From NCBI RefSeq assembly GCF_002980555.1, contig NZ_PVBT01000002.1:124001-188000 (forward strand): a DNA stretch of 64,000 nt, written 5' to 3'. The stretch comes from Phyllobacterium myrsinacearum (GTDB lineage Bacteria; Pseudomonadota; Alphaproteobacteria; Rhizobiales; Rhizobiaceae). The position numbers were made by a program, and so were the translations under genes. This document shows, piece by piece, positions 5,677 to 12,687 of this stretch. A model generated the notes under the pieces. The model was not told where the DNA came from, ran no database searches, and saw only the letters and a list, made by a program, of their open reading frames with translations. Positions within the stretch are counted from its first letter, which is position 1. The number at the start of each line of letters is the position of its first letter.

Positions 5677-6047
5677 AAAACTGTTTGGAATATCCCTTGG
5701 TTTATCGAATGGAATTGTATTCCTTTGGGTAAACAGGATCGGGACAGGCTATTGACTATCCTGCCCGCCTTCCGAAGAGAGACGCATTGCAACGTGCCAT
5801 GCTCGCAGCACTAGCACCTTGCGCTATTCTTCTGACGAATAATCGATGGGTTGGGATCATAGCTTCGTAATTGTCCTGCGACGGTAATTTTGACGTCGAT
5901 GGAATAAATCCGCGTGCCGCGTGTCTTCAACAGGTGGAGTGCGCGTTGGAGTTTCCAGGCAATGCATTTGATTGCTCTGGCCTTTCTCCCAGCTTTCCTT
6001 TCCAGCGGCAACGCCTTGCCGACAAGCCATTACTCATGAGGTAGTCA
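5677..6047. other. Intergenic region before msrP
   Basis: About 370 bp. A 66-codon minus-strand frame (5811-6011) has no recognisable domain and no good ribosome site, so it is not called as a gene. The region contains the putative ECF-type promoter described separately, which would give msrP a leader of about 120 nt, and the msrP ribosome site (GAGG about 8 bp before the ATG). Confidence 0.5.
5901..5927 (+). promoter_or_regulatory. Putative ECF sigma promoter of msrPQ (GGAATAAA-N14-GTCTT)
   Basis: GGAATAAA at 5901-5908 and GTCTT at 5923-5927 are separated by 14 bp. The same two boxes with the same spacing recur at 7731-7757 before the DUF305 gene of this cluster. A GGAA-type -35 box with a short -10 box is the general form of ECF sigma promoters, and an ECF sigma gene lies at 9919. 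Assignment to that sigma factor is inference. Confidence 0.6.
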
Positions 6048-6995
6048 ATGTCGATCTATCATCCGCCGAGAATCCCGGCTTCAGAAATCACACCGCGCGG
6101 TATTTACCTCAAGCGCCGCGACTTTCTTGCGGCCGTAGCCATGTCCGGGCTCTCGATCCTTGCACCTGATCAGGCTGATGCCGCACCTCTCTCGGCGAAG
6201 AAGAGCGGGTACACGGTATCGGAAAAACCGACACCCCACGATGATGTCACAGCTTACAATAACTTTTACGAATTCGGCACCAGCAAATCGGATCCGATGA
6301 GCTATTCCGGGGATTTCAAGCCACGGCCATGGGCCATCAAGGTTGATGGCATGGTTGCCAATCCCAGAACCTTCGACATTGATCAGATCATGCAGGAATA
6401 TCCGGCGGAGGAGCGTGTCTACAGGATGCGTTGCGTCGAAGGATGGTCCATGGTGATCCCATGGCAGGGTTTTCCGCTGTCAGCACTTCTTGACAAAGTC
6501 GAACCCCTTGGAAGCGCCAAGTACGTCATCTTCGAAACAGTCGTGCGGCCAGAGCAGATGCCGGGACAAAACGGCCTGTTTCAACCGCTGCCATGGCCAT
6601 ATATCGAAGGTCTCCGCCTTGACGAAGCTCGCAATCCTTTGACGATCCTGGCGGTTGGTCTTTATGGTGAGACACTCCCTAACCAGAACGGCGCTCCCAT
6701 TCGCTTGGTCGTGCCATGGAAATACGGTTTCAAGGGATGCAAATCGATTGTTCGTATTTCGTTGACCGATACGCAGCCAAAGAACACCTGGAATATCGTC
6801 GCGCCAAGCGAGTATGGTTTTTTTGCCAACGTTAATCCTGAGGTCGATCATCCCCGATGGAGCCAGGCAACTGAGCGACGCATCGGGACAGGGGGCTTCT
6901 TCAGTTCGGACCGGCGTCCAACCTTGATGTTCAATGGCTATGCGGAAGACGTTGCCAGCCTTTACGCCGGCATGGACCTGCGGAAGAACTTCTGA
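6048..6995 (+). CDS. msrP: Protein-methionine-sulfoxide reductase catalytic subunit MsrP
   Basis: A 315-residue periplasmic molybdoenzyme that reduces methionine sulfoxide in oxidised envelope proteins. A twin-arginine-like signal ([10 protein letters not shown], residues 21-30) precedes a hydrophobic stretch ending near Ala46. The mature part has the family segment [14 protein letters not shown], then [10 protein letters not shown], whose Cys129 is the expected molybdenum ligand, and [13 protein letters not shown] near the C-terminus. Length is normal for YedY/MsrP. Its stop overlaps the msrQ start (TGATG), so the pair is translationally coupled. A candidate ECF promoter lies about 120 bp upstream. 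Confidence 0.97.
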
Positions 6996-7660
6996 TGGCC
7001 GTCATGTTCACTGGCACAAGACACTGGAAGGGCGCCTCGGTCTGGCTGCTTTACATCATCGGCCTAACGCCAGGGGTTTGGTATTTTTACTTGGGGGCAA
7101 CCGACAGTCTTGGAGCCAACCCGGTCAAGGCCTTTGAGCAGCTTCTCGGGCTCTGGACGGTCCGTTTTCTCATTCTAACACTTGCCGTCTCGCCGGCACG
7201 TGAGCTTTTCGGCTTGAATTTCATCCGCTATCGCCGCGCATTGGGACTCCTGTGCTTCTACTATGCATTGGTACATCTTTCGGTCTATGTTGTATTTGAC
7301 CAGCCGCCGATTTTGTCGGTCATTCTTGCTGATATCCTAAAGCGTCCATTCATCATGTTGGGCATGGCGGCATTCTTGTTGCTTGTACCGCTCGCAGCGA
7401 CATCGAATGCGTTCTCTATTCGCAGGCTCGGCAAGAATTGGCTTCGCTTGCACCGATTGATCTACGCTGCAACAGTCTGCGGAGGAATCCATTTTGCGCT
7501 GTCAACGAAGGTGCTTTCTGGTGAGCAGTATTTCTATCTGGCTCTGATAGTTCTGATGCTCGGCTATCGGCTTCTTCGTCCAATCCTCAAGAGGCGGCGC
7601 CGGGCCTCAAATTCGGCGCAGCGCTATCAGTCCCGTACGAACAGTGCGCTTGGCAACTGA
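6995..7660 (+). CDS. msrQ: Haem-binding membrane subunit MsrQ
   Basis: A 221-residue inner-membrane protein of the ferric-reductase-like family that passes electrons from the respiratory chain to MsrP. About six hydrophobic segments are visible, including GASVWLLYIIGLTPGVWYFY at the N-terminus. Family motifs are TVRFLILTLAVSPAR, RRALGLLCFYYALVHLSVYV and LHRLIYAATVCGGIHF, whose histidines are candidate haem ligands. The C-terminus is basic and cytosolic. It starts one base into the msrP stop codon. Confidence 0.95.
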   Translation: MAVMFTGTRHWKGASVWLLYIIGLTPGVWYFYLGATDSLGANPVKAFEQLLGLWTVRFLILTLAVSPARELFGLNFIRYRRALGLLCFYYALVHLSVYVVFDQPPILSVILADILKRPFIMLGMAAFLLLVPLAATSNAFSIRRLGKNWLRLHRLIYAATVCGGIHFALSTKVLSGEQYFYLALIVLMLGYRLLRPILKRRRRASNSAQRYQSRTNSALGN

Positions 7661-7730
7661 TCACTATTATGGATTGAAGACACTGGTCGTGAAGTGCTCC
7701 CCGTTTTTGACGCAAAAAATGTCAGGGCGC

Positions 7731-7757
7731 GGAATAAACCCTCGCCTGGGTTGTCTT
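7731..7757 (+). promoter_or_regulatory. Putative ECF sigma promoter of the DUF305 gene (GGAATAAA-N14-GTCTT)
   Basis: GGAATAAA at 7731-7738 and GTCTT at 7753-7757 with a 14-bp spacer, identical in both boxes and in spacing to the element before msrP, while the spacer sequence differs. The start codon of the DUF305 gene is 38 bp downstream, a typical leader length. Confidence 0.6.
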
Positions 7758-7795
7758 ACCGCCAGAACACACAATCTGATCGGAGTATAAAAGAC

Positions 7796-8308
7796 ATGTC
7801 CCATGGATATCTCGACGGTCACCGCGCACTGCTCATCGCTGGAACACTTGCAGTGGCTTGCTCCGCCATCGCGTCGGCACACGATCTGTCCCATATCGCG
7901 GCCAGTACGGAAAATGTGGCGCCACGCGGTGAAGCGGACGAAACGCCGTTTCTGACGCGAAACGATGCCGCCATGACAAAGATGATGGCGGATATGAACG
8001 TCAAGCCTACGGGCGACGTTGATCGTGACTTTGTGGCAATGATGGTGCCGCACCATCAGGGAGCGATTGCCATGGCTCTGGCAGTTCTGCGTTACGGCAA
8101 AAACGAGAAAATAAGACGTCTGGCGCAGGAAATCATCGTTACGCAGCAACAGGAAATTGCCGCGATGCGCCTTGCGATCGGCGACCCGCTGCCATCGTCC
8201 AAGCCATCTTCAACCCAAACCGCGTTCATACCTGATCTGGATACGCACTCGCCGTCAACTCAAGCAATATCCGTGTCGTCAGCCGTTAACATCCAACAAG
8301 GAATTTAA
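7796..8308 (+). CDS. DUF305 domain-containing exported protein
   Basis: A 170-residue protein with an N-terminal hydrophobic signal segment (LLIAGTLAVACSAIASA, ending near residue 25). One DUF305 domain follows, with core DRDFVAMMVPHHQGAIAMALAVL and the later Gln/Met-rich helix EIIVTQQQEIAAMR. DUF305 proteins are ferritin-like helical bundles, often exported and sometimes linked to copper. The start at 7796 is chosen over an upstream in-frame ATG at 7694 because GGAG precedes it and it begins the signal peptide. It lies 38 bp after the putative ECF promoter and directly before the beta-propeller gene. Confidence 0.85.
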   Translation: MSHGYLDGHRALLIAGTLAVACSAIASAHDLSHIAASTENVAPRGEADETPFLTRNDAAMTKMMADMNVKPTGDVDRDFVAMMVPHHQGAIAMALAVLRYGKNEKIRRLAQEIIVTQQQEIAAMRLAIGDPLPSSKPSSTQTAFIPDLDTHSPSTQAISVSSAVNIQQGI

Positions 8309-8309
8309 A

Positions 8310-9773
8310 ATGAGATCGAAGCTTTTCACCTTGACGCTATTGATTGGCACTGCAGCAGCAGGGCTCGGATCGGCATTCGCCGGGCAGGTCCCAGGACCAG
8401 CCTCGGCGCCGGACATCCCCGTCAGTCATCGCGACCGTGTCTACGCGGCCGAACAGTTTTCAAATACGGTATCGGTCACCGATCCTGCCGATAACAAGCT
8501 GTTGGGCGTCATCCGGCTCGGAGATCCGCAGCCAGGCAATCTTGCCCCACTCTATCGCGGTCAGGTGCTTGTGCACGGCATGGGTTTTTCCCCCGATCAC
8601 AAAACGCTCGCGGTTGTCTCGATCGGCACCAATTCTGTTACGTTTATCGACACGGCCACCAACGCGATCAAACACGTCACGTACCTCGGGCGGGCACCGC
8701 ATGAGGCATTTTTCACACTTGACGGTAAGGAAGTCTGGGTCACGGTTCGGGGTGAAGATTACATCGCCGTTCTGGATGGACATACATTTGCAGAAAAGAC
8801 GCGGATCAAGGTGCCCGGAGGACCGGGCATGCAGATATTCTCGCCTGACAACAAATACGGCTATGTCTGTTCGTCATTCAATCCGGAAACCGTCGTCATT
8901 TCCGTTGCCGATCACAAAATCGTCGGCCATGTGAAGCAGGAAAGCCCGTTCTGTCCCGATCTCGCAGCAACGCCTGATGGCAAGCAAGTCTGGTTCACTC
9001 TGAAAGACGTGGGCAGGACACAGGTGTTTGACGCCAAGCCACCCTTCAAACTCATCAAAACGCTGGATACGGGGCCGATCACCAATCACGTCAACATCGT
9101 CCGCAATGCCAATGGCATGTTTGCCTACGTGACTGTTGGCGGATTGAACCAGATCAAGGTTTTCCGCACCGACACATTTGAGCAAGTGGCCACGATCCCG
9201 GTCGGTAAGCTCCCGCATGGGCTGTGGCCCGCTGGTGATGGCACACGTGTTTACGTCGGCCTGGAAAATGCCGATGCACTGGCGGCCATCGACACGCTGA
9301 CCAATACGGTGATCGCAACCATTCCCATTGGACAGGCGCCGCAGGCTTTGACCTATGTTCCCAATGCTGTTCCGGAAGGTGACGGGATGCAGAATTTGCA
9401 ACCTCTCGGTGTTGCTGGCCAAGCGGCTCAGTTGACCCTCGCTTCGGTGTCGGCTGCTGCATCTGCGGAGGCAAAGCCGACGAGTGTGACCCTCTTTGAT
9501 CAGGGGCTTACACAGGTTCTGCAAGCTGCAGTGACGGGTCTGGAGCCCAAACAGCCTTATGTGCTGGCACTGGCATCTCAGCCGGATGGTGGTGGTGCGC
9601 TCCAGCCGCTGGCAGCCTTCATGACCAACCCCGCGGGTTCGGCAATCGTCAATGCGGTTGGCCCCATTCGTCAATTGGCAGAGAGTGGACAGGACGTCCC
9701 GAGCCGCTATCTGGTGGTTGCGTCCGGCACAGCCGCCAAGATCGGTAAGCTCGTGCAGGTGCAGACGAAATGA
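8310..9773 (+). CDS. Exported YVTN/YncE-type beta-propeller protein
   Basis: A 487-residue protein with a signal peptide (MRSKLFTLTLLIGTAAAGLGSAFA). It is followed by repeated blades of the YVTN type, for example RVYAAEQFSNTVSVTDPADNKLLGVI, NSVTFIDTATNAIKHV, and YVGLENADALAAIDTLTNTVIATIPIG. After the propeller (to about residue 370) a C-terminal segment of about 110 residues resembles no named domain I recognise. The start is the ATG at 8310, one base after the DUF305 stop. It is probably a periplasmic scaffold or redox-partner protein co-expressed with DUF305; the molecular role is unknown. Confidence 0.85.
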   Translation: MRSKLFTLTLLIGTAAAGLGSAFAGQVPGPASAPDIPVSHRDRVYAAEQFSNTVSVTDPADNKLLGVIRLGDPQPGNLAPLYRGQVLVHGMGFSPDHKTLAVVSIGTNSVTFIDTATNAIKHVTYLGRAPHEAFFTLDGKEVWVTVRGEDYIAVLDGHTFAEKTRIKVPGGPGMQIFSPDNKYGYVCSSFNPETVVISVADHKIVGHVKQESPFCPDLAATPDGKQVWFTLKDVGRTQVFDAKPPFKLIKTLDTGPITNHVNIVRNANGMFAYVTVGGLNQIKVFRTDTFEQVATIPVGKLPHGLWPAGDGTRVYVGLENADALAAIDTLTNTVIATIPIGQAPQALTYVPNAVPEGDGMQNLQPLGVAGQAAQLTLASVSAAASAEAKPTSVTLFDQGLTQVLQAAVTGLEPKQPYVLALASQPDGGGALQPLAAFMTNPAGSAIVNAVGPIRQLAESGQDVPSRYLVVASGTAAKIGKLVQVQTK

Positions 9774-9779
9774 TAAGGC

Positions 9780-9824
9780 GCTGCCCGCATTCGGTTTTCC
9801 ATCAGGCAGCGAGATGCGGGCAGC
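9780..9824. terminator. Perfect 11-bp inverted repeat between beta-propeller and sigma genes
   Basis: GCTGCCCGCAT at 9780-9790 is exactly mirrored by ATGCGGGCAGC at 9814-9824, with a 23-nt loop, just after the beta-propeller stop. There is no T-run, so it is not a classic intrinsic terminator. It could attenuate read-through into the sigma gene or protect the upstream mRNA end. Confidence 0.4.
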
Positions 9825-9918
9825 GGTCACATATCGAGACGGTACGGCAGAATGGTATTGGTACAATGGCTACCGTCAGCGGCGTCGTGCAACGCCTTGA
9901 AGCAGAAGGGGCTCTGAC

Positions 9919-10449
9919 ATGACAGATATGATCGTTTTGATCGAGCCCCTCATTCCGGCATTGCGGCGATATGCGCGTAGCTTGATGCGGGATCGTTCGG
10001 CTGCCGATGACCTGCTGCAGGATTGTCTGGAGCGGGCCGTCAGTCATTGGCATCAGCGGCGTGATGATGGTAACGCCAGAACATGGATGTTTACGATCCT
10101 GCACAATCTGGCCATCAACCGCCTACAGAAAACCGCACGGCGCGGAGTTCATCTGGATATTGACGATGCATCTGATCCGGCCCTCTCGGGGAGGCCGACG
10201 CAAGAGGATGGCTTACATCAACAGGACGTTTTGCGTGCCTTGAAAACTTTGCCGGAAGAGCAGAGAAATGTCATTCTTCTCGTTTCGGTTGAAGATTTAT
10301 CCTATGCGGAAACCGCAAAGGTTCTCGGAATTCCTATAGGTACGGTTATGTCGCGATTGGCGCGAGGCCGTGAACGGTTGCGGCAGGTTCTTGAGGGTGA
10401 AGTGAACAACAAGATTGAAAACGGTCCTCATTTGAGGAGAGTAAAATGA
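9919..10449 (+). CDS. ECF-family RNA polymerase sigma factor
   Basis: A 176-residue sigma-70-family ECF factor. Region 2 is RYARSLMRDRSAADDLLQDCLERAV through ARTWMFTILHNLAINRL (about residues 15-72), and region 4 is LPEEQRNVILLVSVEDLSYAETAKVLGIPIGTVMSRLARGRERL (about 112-157). It contains neither region 1.1 nor region 3, as usual for ECF factors. The gene overlaps the anti-sigma gene by 4 bp. Its position next to msrPQ, DUF305 and the beta-propeller, and the shared promoter motif there, suggest it controls that envelope-stress set. AGAAGGGG precedes the ATG. Confidence 0.95.
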   Translation: MTDMIVLIEPLIPALRRYARSLMRDRSAADDLLQDCLERAVSHWHQRRDDGNARTWMFTILHNLAINRLQKTARRGVHLDIDDASDPALSGRPTQEDGLHQQDVLRALKTLPEEQRNVILLVSVEDLSYAETAKVLGIPIGTVMSRLARGRERLRQVLEGEVNNKIENGPHLRRVK

Positions 10450-11222
10450 ACAACAGCCCGATCACGGAAGACGATCTGCACGCTTATGTCGACCAGGCTC
10501 TTAGCACGGCCAGACGGGATCAGGTTGCCCAGTATCTTGAGCAACACCCTGATGAGGCCGAGCGGATCGCAAGTTATCGAAAGCAGCGGGATCAACTGCG
10601 GTCTGCACTCGCACCAATAAGCGAAGAACCGGTACCTCCTGAGCTTAATCTGGCGCGCATGCTTGATAGCGCGCGGCGTCCAAGATTTCCGGTTTGGCGC
10701 TCCGCTGCTGCCGCTGTTGTATTGCTTGCAGTTGGCCTAACCGGCGGCTGGTCGCTTCAGACTCTGTCTCAACCAGCTACCGGCGGCATCATAGCGCTCG
10801 CTGACGAGGCGACATACAGCTATCAGGTCTATGCTGGAGATAAGGGACGGCCAGTGGAAATCAAAGCATCCGATCAGGATAGCCTGGTCAAATGGGTTTC
10901 GAACCGTCTGGGCCACAATGTATCCGTGCCTGACCTGACAGGCTCCGGCTACCGGTTCATGGGAGGGCGCGTTGTTGCCACAGCCCACGGCCCTGCGGGT
11001 ATGTTCATGTATGACGATGACAATGGCACCCGGTTGGTGATGCTCACACGGGCCATGGCAGCGGATAAAAACTCTCCCATGTTGTCGCAATCCGCCGGCC
11101 TTGTGCAGAGGATCAGCTGGTCAAAGGCGGGCATCGGCTACAGCCTGGTCGGGCCTCTTTCCACCGAGGTGCTCAATCCGCTTGCCAATGAAATGCGCCG
11201 GCAAATCGAAACAAATGCGTAG
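10446..11222 (+). CDS. Membrane-anchored anti-sigma factor
   Basis: A 258-residue protein. The N-terminal cytosolic part (ITEDDLHAYVDQALSTARRDQVAQYLEQHPDEAERIASYRKQ) is the pattern seen in rhizobial anti-sigma factors. One transmembrane helix follows (about residues 81-99, AAAAVVLLAVGLTGGWSL), then a periplasmic domain of about 155 residues. No HxxxCxxC zinc motif is present, so it is not a ZAS-type anti-sigma. It overlaps the sigma gene by 4 bp with its own GAGGAG ribosome site. It probably holds the sigma factor at the membrane until an envelope signal. Confidence 0.9.
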   Translation: MNNSPITEDDLHAYVDQALSTARRDQVAQYLEQHPDEAERIASYRKQRDQLRSALAPISEEPVPPELNLARMLDSARRPRFPVWRSAAAAVVLLAVGLTGGWSLQTLSQPATGGIIALADEATYSYQVYAGDKGRPVEIKASDQDSLVKWVSNRLGHNVSVPDLTGSGYRFMGGRVVATAHGPAGMFMYDDDNGTRLVMLTRAMAADKNSPMLSQSAGLVQRISWSKAGIGYSLVGPLSTEVLNPLANEMRRQIETNA

Positions 11223-11385: not shown

Positions 11386-12687
11386 ATGAAGCTTGCGACT
11401 TGGCCGCGATTTAATTTCAACCTCGCAGAGTTAGAGCGGGCAGCGCTTTCAGCGAAATCCAACCGGCATGCCGATATTTTTGTTGATTGGGATGCCAACG
11501 ATTTGAATGACGATCTGCGCTGGCAATCTGCCGGGCAGGGGAGTTGCGATTGTCGTAACTCATCACGTCAGCCGGTTGATGATGTGATTTTTGCCCGCAG
11601 CCGTTGTTTGAAGATGGGGATCATTGACTATCCATTTCAGAGTTCCGGTATTGCCGCTGAAACACCACCGGTCTGCGATATCGACATGGGAAAGCGGCGG
11701 GATGTTCCAAAGCGTGGTCGTCTGAGCATCGCCTATGCATGGTTCACTTCACTTGCGGTCCACCTCGCTTTGCTTGCTGCTCTTTCCTTTAGCCTGACGG
11801 CACCCATAGTGCAGGAGGAAGCTGGCTCAGTCGTTAGTTTGATCATAGTTGGCGATTCCGAAACCAACAGCACTGTTGCAGGTGATCCAGATTTGCAGGT
11901 TGATCCCCTGCACCAAGAAGACGTGCCTGCAAATACGCAATCAGCGGCAGTGCAGCCCAACGCGATGCCGGCAATTGAAGACAGGAAAAGTCAATTCGAG
12001 CAGGAGGCTGCGCTTGGTTCATCGATGCCGGATGCTGCCGAACCGCTGCCGCTGACGTCGAACGCTCCCGCTGAGACGGCGGCGTTACAGGCGGTGGCAA
12101 CGCAGGGGCAAGAAGATCCCAAGCCCGTTGCCCCCGTTGAAATGGGCGAAGGGCAAAAAGAACAATCAAGTTCTATGAACGCGCCCGGCTTGATGCCAGC
12201 CTCCAAAATCGTACATCCCATCGAAAAATTGAAGGCCACGGCGAAGAAAAAGCCGAAAAACAAAACAACAAAGAAACCTCCCGGTTCTCAAAGCGGGAAG
12301 AAGGGGGATTCCGGACATGGTGAGGACAATGACAGCAAAGCGGTATCTTCCGACCAAAGCTTCCGTTCTGCTGCACGTTCGGACGGAATGGGCAATGCGG
12401 ACATAGACAACTATCCGGGCAAGGTGCAGTCGCGTATTCGCCGTGCGGTCAGATATCCCTTGGGGAACAGGCGCATGTTGGCCTCAATGAATGTGCGAGT
12501 GCGTCTCACTATCAGCCGGGACGGTTCACTCGCGGAAGTCTCGGTCGTCCAGAGTTCAGGAATTCCGGCACTTGACAGTGCTGTGGTAGCAGGTGTCCGG
12601 CGCGCAGCGCCGTACCCCCCGCTGCCGTCCAAGTGGAGCAAGCCGAGCTGGACCTTTGCACAAGACGTTCAGGTTACGGGACGATAG
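11386..12687 (+). CDS. TonB-like energy-transducing protein, start uncertain
   Basis: The certain part has a single transmembrane helix (YAWFTSLAVHLALLAALSFSL), an acidic/Gln-rich periplasmic spacer and a Lys-rich segment (KKKPKNKTTKKPPG). It ends in a TonB_C domain (YPGKVQSRIRRAVRYPLGNRR through RAAPYPPLP), as in proteins that couple inner-membrane energy to outer-membrane receptors. The open frame is 433 codons from 11386, where a GAGG site exists. That start places about 120 residues before the helix, which is unusual. Internal ATGs at 11614 (357 aa) and 11686 (333 aa) give more normal lengths but weak ribosome sites. No ExbBD genes are adjacent. Confidence 0.8.
   Translation: MKLATWPRFNFNLAELERAALSAKSNRHADIFVDWDANDLNDDLRWQSAGQGSCDCRNSSRQPVDDVIFARSRCLKMGIIDYPFQSSGIAAETPPVCDIDMGKRRDVPKRGRLSIAYAWFTSLAVHLALLAALSFSLTAPIVQEEAGSVVSLIIVGDSETNSTVAGDPDLQVDPLHQEDVPANTQSAAVQPNAMPAIEDRKSQFEQEAALGSSMPDAAEPLPLTSNAPAETAALQAVATQGQEDPKPVAPVEMGEGQKEQSSSMNAPGLMPASKIVHPIEKLKATAKKKPKNKTTKKPPGSQSGKKGDSGHGEDNDSKAVSSDQSFRSAARSDGMGNADIDNYPGKVQSRIRRAVRYPLGNRRMLASMNVRVRLTISRDGSLAEVSVVQSSGIPALDSAVVAGVRRAAPYPPLPSKWSKPSWTFAQDVQVTGR

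Follow-up and report, generated by a model that had tools for sequence, protein, structure and literature searches.

A predicted ECF26-type sigma regulon that joins msrPQ to a DUF305–propeller unit in Phyllobacterium myrsinacearum

Introduction

In Starkeya novella the unit Snov_0990–0993 encodes, in order, a DUF305 protein, a YVTN propeller, an ECF sigma factor and an anti-sigma factor. In reporter assays the promoter of the DUF305 gene, Snov_0990, is activated by SnRpoE1 (Snov_0992), and it presumably serves the propeller gene Snov_0991 as well, whereas the 270 bases 5′ of the sigma gene are not activated; the inducer is tetrathionate, and msrPQ is not among the genes described for the unit (PMC6527743). 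RpoE1 and RpoE4 of S. meliloti have a small regulon and an anti-sigma gene downstream, their targets being sorT, SMc02156 and their own operons and their signal sulfite-generating compounds; msrPQ was not found in the target lists examined (PMC3511301, PMC6180224). The ECF26 promoter consensus is −35 GGAATA and −10 GT (PMC6180224), and the S. meliloti and S. novella promoter is also given as −35 GGAAT and −10 CGTC (PMC6527743).

Methionine repair by MsrPQ is known from other regulatory settings. In Azospira suillum and Brucella melitensis the ECF16 factors SigF/BcrS control msrPQ together with an exported protein, using the promoter TGTAAC-N17-CGAA, a DUF1109 anti-sigma factor and a methionine-rich MXKDX peptide; MsrPQ belongs there to the HOCl-induced bcrXQP operon under BcrS (PMC8315932). 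In E. coli, copper induces MsrPQ via the two-component system CusSR, and MsrPQ keeps the methionines of CusF reduced (PMC9302797). Both the DUF305/propeller/sigma/anti-sigma unit and ECF control of MsrP are already known, from S. novella and ECF16 respectively; among titles and opening lines of abstracts in the open-access literature, no report of MsrPQ under an ECF26 sigma factor was found. Here we describe a locus of P. myrsinacearum in which the two appear to be combined.

Gene content of the locus

The window, the whole 64,000-nt stretch analysed, belongs to a genome of 5.44 Mb (5,437,700 bases, 44 contigs). Its features at the locus are given below; R1 is a promoter model built from 42 foreign DUF305 promoters without any sequence of the window's genome.

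5901–5927, + strand: predicted ECF26-type promoter of msrPQ; exact motif match, best R1 match in the genome (16.1 bits)
6048–6995, + strand: msrP, catalytic subunit of periplasmic methionine sulfoxide reductase; NCBIfam MsrP equivalog 483.2 bits (cut-off 207)
6995–7660, + strand: msrQ, heme-binding membrane subunit; NCBIfam MsrQ equivalog 142.8 bits (cut-off 130)
7731–7757, + strand: predicted ECF26-type promoter of the DUF305–propeller genes; exact motif match, second R1 match (15.1 bits), conserved 5′ of DUF305 in relatives
7796–8308, + strand: exported DUF305 protein, possible copper binder; PF03713, E 5.9e-19
8310–9773, + strand: exported YncE/YVTN-type beta-propeller protein; PF21783, YVTN repeats
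9777–9828, + strand: strong hairpin between the propeller and sigma genes, without a T run; −31.1 kcal/mol, z −5.03
9919–10449, + strand: ECF sigma factor, RpoE1-like (ECF26); Sigma70 r2 and r4 matches
10446–11222, + strand: anti-sigma factor with one hydrophobic stretch (by eye), assigned by position; NCBIfam anti-sigma models weak, below cut-off

Open reading frames, Pfam and NCBIfam agree with the initial annotation on the genes at this locus, including the ECF sigma/anti-sigma pair that it placed at 9919–11222, which consists of two frames, the start of the anti-sigma gene overlapping the end of the sigma gene. The MsrP and MsrQ equivalog models are both exceeded, which identifies the window's pair as MsrPQ; SorA and SorT models gave 43.2 and 23.8 bits on the window's molybdoenzyme, far under their cut-offs of 600 and 570. 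A LysR gene lies just upstream of msrP, and a signal-peptide-like open frame of 25 codons (5962–6039, + strand) fills the msrP leader, ending just 5′ of the msrP ribosome-binding site. The DUF305 protein has 9 Met in 170 residues and scores 87.6 bits with the CopM model, just under the cut-off of 90 (a second DUF305 protein of the genome scores 73.1); CopM binds Cu(I) (PMC4335983). In the propeller, His 89, 131, 260 and 303 and Cys 187 and 215 are invariant in 19 aligned relatives, and a metal site formed by these residues is conceivable. The stem of the hairpin is also visible in P. calauticae, and the structure could restrict how much transcription continues into the sigma gene. Sigma matches in the genome number 12, the closest paralogue of the 9919–10449 product being at most 42% identical to it. 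Downstream of the anti-sigma gene lies a TonB-like gene (11386–12687, + strand), and two TonB-receptor genes stand behind predicted motif copies on the same contig.

Despite the likeness to ECF16 systems, in which an ECF sigma factor controls msrPQ and an exported protein as predicted here, none of the distinguishing ECF16 features was found at the window's unit: the anti-sigma protein has no Pfam match and hence no DUF1109, no MXKDX peptide was found, and GTAA[CT]-N16-19-CGAA is absent from the 600 bases 5′ of msrP.

The motif pair in the genome

Exact matches to GGAATAAA-N14-GTCTT were found on the + strand at both promoter positions, with identical boxes and different spacers, as the initial annotation had reported. 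Its proposed genome-wide search for the motif returned exactly these 2 copies, one before msrPQ and one before the DUF305–propeller genes; the reversed control occurs 0 times in the whole genome, and dinucleotide-preserving shuffles of the window gave a mean of 0.00 (n=100). Boxes of the ECF26 promoter are present at ECF26 spacing at both sites, and by its letters the motif is of the ECF26 type, GGAATA-N16-GTC. Judging from the mapped start of S. meliloti sorT (PMC6180224), transcription is predicted to begin near 5935 (msrPQ) and near 7765 (DUF305–propeller), about 113 bases from the start codon for msrP and 31 for DUF305. The two sites share 13 fixed bases at the same spacing. A recent duplication of the DUF305 promoter was considered as the source of the msrP site and ruled out, because spacers and flanks differ.

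Among the 150 of 1486 candidates that were scored, the two top R1 ranks go to the msrP site and, next, the DUF305 site, at modest genome-wide E-values (0.08 and 0.17); behind them come C2:100039, a site on C4 within coding sequence, C2:112191 and C2:102056. The looser pattern GGAATAA-N13-18-GTCT shows no excess in the genome (9 sites vs 9 reversed-control sites). Limited to N15-16 it gives 7 vs 2, but the other 20 genomes of the genus combined give 46 vs 55, with six sites in one of them (G390), so that loose counts are weak by themselves and were dropped as evidence. What stands out in the N15-16 sites is location, not number: all but one of the 7 fall in the 46–132 kb interval of contig C2. 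Sites C1:972460, C4:402907, C9:6606 and C1:559572 resemble chance hits within or spanning other open frames, the first recurring in genus members without the propeller, and C4:343252 and C8:242253 were set aside for their shorter spacing.

Conservation in relatives

Relatives were collected by a profile search of genome contigs with the propeller alignment, and the best 80 of at least 538 were used, with propellers 72–94% identical. The footprinting set comprised these 80 loci, the window and three plasmid loci; a DUF305 gene was present in 83 of the 84 and none was found in L099. GGAAT[AT]-N15-18-GTC occurs 5′ of DUF305 in 59/62 loci with the sigma gene directly downstream (exceptions L032, L053 and L108) vs 3/21 without, a difference with a Fisher p of 2e-12 that is overstated, many loci being close kin, and inflated by beta-proteobacterial loci, which tend to lack both sigma gene and motif. 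Two of the three motif-bearing loci without an adjacent sigma gene, L057 and L068, are from Pseudomonas genomes that have an ECF sigma gene elsewhere with the motif before it; in the third, L100, the sole match is a GGAATT one at a distance of 311 bases. With the window and L100 set aside, the spacer is 16 in 60/61 sites. Strict-motif matches in the loci number 81, vs 2 for the reversed motif, and 59 permuted −35 words reach a mean of 5.6 and a maximum of 28. An opposite-strand match was found in 8/83 upstream regions; downstream of six strict opposite-strand sites lie short exported proteins or open frames, of which five are SnoaL/NTF2-like (one a partial match).

The order DUF305, propeller, sigma, anti-sigma agrees with that of the SnRpoE1 unit and is also found in Ancylobacter (L050, L055, L069). 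Where the sigma operon is not preceded by a DUF305 unit, in Roseomonas, Bartonella and Aureimonas, the motif stands directly 5′ of the sigma operon itself; the Methylorubrum locus L225 has no strict match there. Between the window's propeller and sigma genes R1 finds no match, in keeping with the inactivity of the corresponding region in S. novella (PMC6527743). Since the S. novella DUF305 promoter is activated by SnRpoE1, the window's unit is best seen as a relative of a known unit with msrPQ added.

Other predicted targets

Further genes of the genome stand behind predicted motif copies on contig C2:

C2 46361, − strand: predicted target, TonB receptor
C2 100043, + strand: predicted target, solute-binding protein
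C2 101931, − strand: predicted target, second DUF305
C2 102057, + strand: predicted target, PCuAC then SCO1
C2 112220, − strand: predicted target, DJ-1/PfpI protein then TonB-receptor-like gene (by eye)

The site at C2:112220 (− strand; locus L237, 4220) repeats the promoter, leader and gene start of DUF305 in decayed form, an apparent case of promoter capture by duplication before the DJ-1/PfpI and TonB-receptor-like genes; that at C2 46361 shares part of the DUF305 leader.

In Rhizobiales relatives, copC followed by copD directly precedes DUF305 in four loci, all with the motif before copC (L065, L075, L095, and L042 with GGAATT). A copD-like gene stands directly before DUF305 in L059 (cut by the contig end) and L092, copC not being found in either, and in L074 copC lies 3′ of the anti-sigma gene without the motif. 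Unlinked motif sites precede CopC in G806, G802 and G808 (the last identified by eye); G806 also has one before an exported MsrB, and G822 one before a catalase-like protein opposite a sigma gene. In L300 (G808, contig C66) the motif stands before ilvD, divergent from an ordinary msrP; its product, an iron-sulfur dehydratase, would be a plausible copper- or oxidant-sensitive target.

Across 27 genomes with the DUF305–propeller–sigma cassette R1 gave 80 matches, 25 of which are DUF305 promoters (25/27 genomes); genes 3′ of the matches were examined where the strict motif stands. Fourteen matches precede other genes (4 CopC, 3 SnoaL/NTF2-like, and 1 each of sigma, catalase-like protein, msrP, exported MsrB, alpha/beta hydrolase, IlvD and unknown), and about 41 have no assigned gene or are probably chance, many spanning long stretches of open frame. 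What is said here on copper and on MsrB is picked from the 55 non-DUF305 matches.

msrP in other lineages

The strict motif lies within 200 bases of 3 of the 106 msrP genes examined (77, plus 29 from an Acetobacteraceae-family set), the same three that were seen with the sigma gene within about 11 kb: those of the window, of Roseomonas marmotae plasmid p1318-4 and of G1002, from the family of an Acetobacteraceae MAG. On p1318-4 the motif is 89 bases from msrP, and the sigma gene, about 10 kb off, has its own motif 78 bases 5′. G1002 has the order DUF305, propeller, sigma, anti-sigma, msrP, with the motif before DUF305 and before msrP, which is the window's two-promoter plan except that msrP flanks the cassette at its opposite end; its 16-kb stretch yielded no msrQ.

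Elsewhere no motif was found within 200 bases of the gene: not in 11 genus-type copies (10 other genus genomes and the second copy of this genome), nor in 29 from the order (29 of 46 other genomes, matching at E 1e-110; the other 17 yielded no msrP locus), nor in 30 from other cassette genomes (of 32 with a match), so that msrP is not a core target. Among plasmids it was present in 1 of 6 msrP genes examined (of 59 records), that of Roseomonas, and in the Acetobacteraceae-family set in 1 of 29, a strict match at 581 bases in L258 being left uncounted. No msrPQ was found beside the cassette in the 80 relative loci (the best 80 of at least 538, with flanks up to 7 kb and often shorter), and L097 yielded no more than a weak molybdoenzyme match (26%). 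An msrQ-like gene (41%) stands at the very edge of the L071 stretch (109–675), about 6 kb 5′ of a DUF305–propeller pair without an adjacent sigma gene.

The second msrP of the genome, on C1, is 51% identical to the cassette copy and resembles the genus copies, whereas for the cassette msrP the other 20 genus genomes offer nothing closer than 52% identity. The msrP tree places Roseomonas and G1002 in a clade of three (0.962) and the window in a clade of 33 (0.998), which argues for two recruitments rather than three; msrP was probably recruited twice by the motif and its sigma factor. The sigma tree puts all three in a group of five that carries no support value, with Roseomonas and G1002 as sisters (0.993), and this shared group speaks against full independence of the recruitments. 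The predicted link to msrP is drawn from these two lineages.

Discussion

The sites at 5901–5927 and 7731–7757 are, in our judgement rather probably, the promoters of one small regulon read by the RpoE1-like, ECF26-type sigma factor 9919–10449, which the anti-sigma factor 10446–11222 would hold inactive. On sequence evidence, direct sigma control of both promoters is the best-supported mechanism, and we infer that it extends to msrPQ in P. myrsinacearum. The anti-sigma factor would keep sigma inactive at the membrane until envelope stress frees it; RNA polymerase would then start about 8 bases after each GTCTT, giving one transcript for msrPQ and one for DUF305 and the propeller. The latter may pass the hairpin at 9777–9828 into the sigma and anti-sigma genes, which would constitute feedback. 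MsrPQ would repair oxidised periplasmic methionines, its likely clients being methionine-containing, possibly copper-binding proteins of the regulon (the DUF305 protein and, elsewhere in the genome, the second DUF305 and PCuAC–SCO1). The one-sigma regulon of the initial annotation thus stands as a prediction for msrPQ and the DUF305–propeller genes, on the motif pair, the footprinting, the foreign-trained model and the second lineage; the DUF305–propeller unit was already known as a target of such a sigma factor, the homologous S. novella promoter being activated by SnRpoE1 (PMC6527743).

Two alternatives concern the promoters themselves. The msrP site might be a chance match or a decayed element, msrPQ being read from another promoter, for example one regulated by the upstream LysR gene; the position of that gene, the distance from predicted start to start codon and the loose counts without excess would all fit. 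Against this stand the 13 fixed bases at identical spacing, the first rank of the site with R1 among the candidates scored, the fact that sigma, motif and msrP occur together again in another lineage, and spacers and flanks that mark the site as no recent copy of the DUF305 promoter, and we regard it as quite unlikely. It is more improbable still that a different ECF sigma factor of the genome is the main reader of the motif. There are 11 further sigma matches, the targets of the four ECF26 factors of S. meliloti overlap (PMC6180224), and this sigma factor, too, may recognise promoters overlapping those of other ECF factors; however, its closest paralogue is distant, no GGAATA-type promoter was found in the loci of the five best paralogues scanned, and in relatives the motif accompanies the neighbouring sigma gene.

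Granted direct control by this sigma factor, the nature of the stress can be read in several ways. The predicted targets suggest copper and methionine oxidation at least as much as the reactive chlorine that the initial annotation had named alongside oxidative stress. Because they include PCuAC–SCO1, the second DUF305, CopC and an exported MsrB, the DUF305–propeller–sigma cassette may, tentatively, be a joint envelope response to copper and methionine oxidation, gene content being what points to copper as the signal. If so, the sigma factor would make copper-binding, methionine-containing periplasmic proteins (DUF305, PCuAC–SCO1, CopC) and, in the capturing lineages, a repair enzyme as well (MsrPQ, or exported MsrB in one Rhizobiales genome); MsrP would have as its main client DUF305, a counterpart of the ECF16 methionine-rich peptide and of E. 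coli CusF; and members would have been recruited by gaining the promoter, once through a duplicated DUF305 promoter, leader and gene start. The proposal resembles the E. coli case, where copper-trafficking proteins and the MsrPQ that repairs their methionines are produced together, with the differences that CusSR is not a sigma factor and that the repair shown there is proposed here (PMC9302797).

A reactive sulfur compound (sulfite, tetrathionate or a product of taurine breakdown) acting through the same sigma factor and promoters is a rather doubtful signal, msrP then having been captured as a member of the sulfite-oxidase fold family, which is often ECF26-controlled. The response of S. meliloti RpoE1/RpoE4 to sulfite-generating compounds and their control of sorT (PMC3511301) speak for it, as do the rise of the S. 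novella unit on tetrathionate (PMC6527743) and a Sphingomonas parapaucimobilis plasmid locus (L227) in which a TDT-family transporter and SorA/SorT-like molybdoenzymes, the latter scoring under the model cut-offs, are found close to the cassette. The window's enzyme, however, is MsrP, far under the SorA/SorT cut-offs, and sulfite leaves PCuAC–SCO1, CopC and exported MsrB as predicted targets unexplained. In L227 the motif also occurs a second time, 5′ of a LysR gene. That reactive chlorine is the main signal, as for ECF16 of Brucella and Azospira, is unlikely: the HOCl-induced MsrPQ under BcrS (PMC8315932) offers a precedent, but the ECF16 features are absent at the window's msrP, and MsrPQ does not distinguish chlorine from copper, both of which induce it in E. 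coli (PMC9302797).

The predicted regulon links periplasmic methionine repair to a sigma group so far tied mainly to sulfite. That one sigma factor captured the same repair gene in two lineages, as the loci suggest, would be expected if it answers a methionine-damaging stress. The DUF305–propeller pair, found in many alpha- and some beta- and gamma-proteobacteria, gains a directly testable role: its apparent sharing of a switch with the MsrPQ repair enzymes hints that these two proteins help to cope with copper or oxidant damage.
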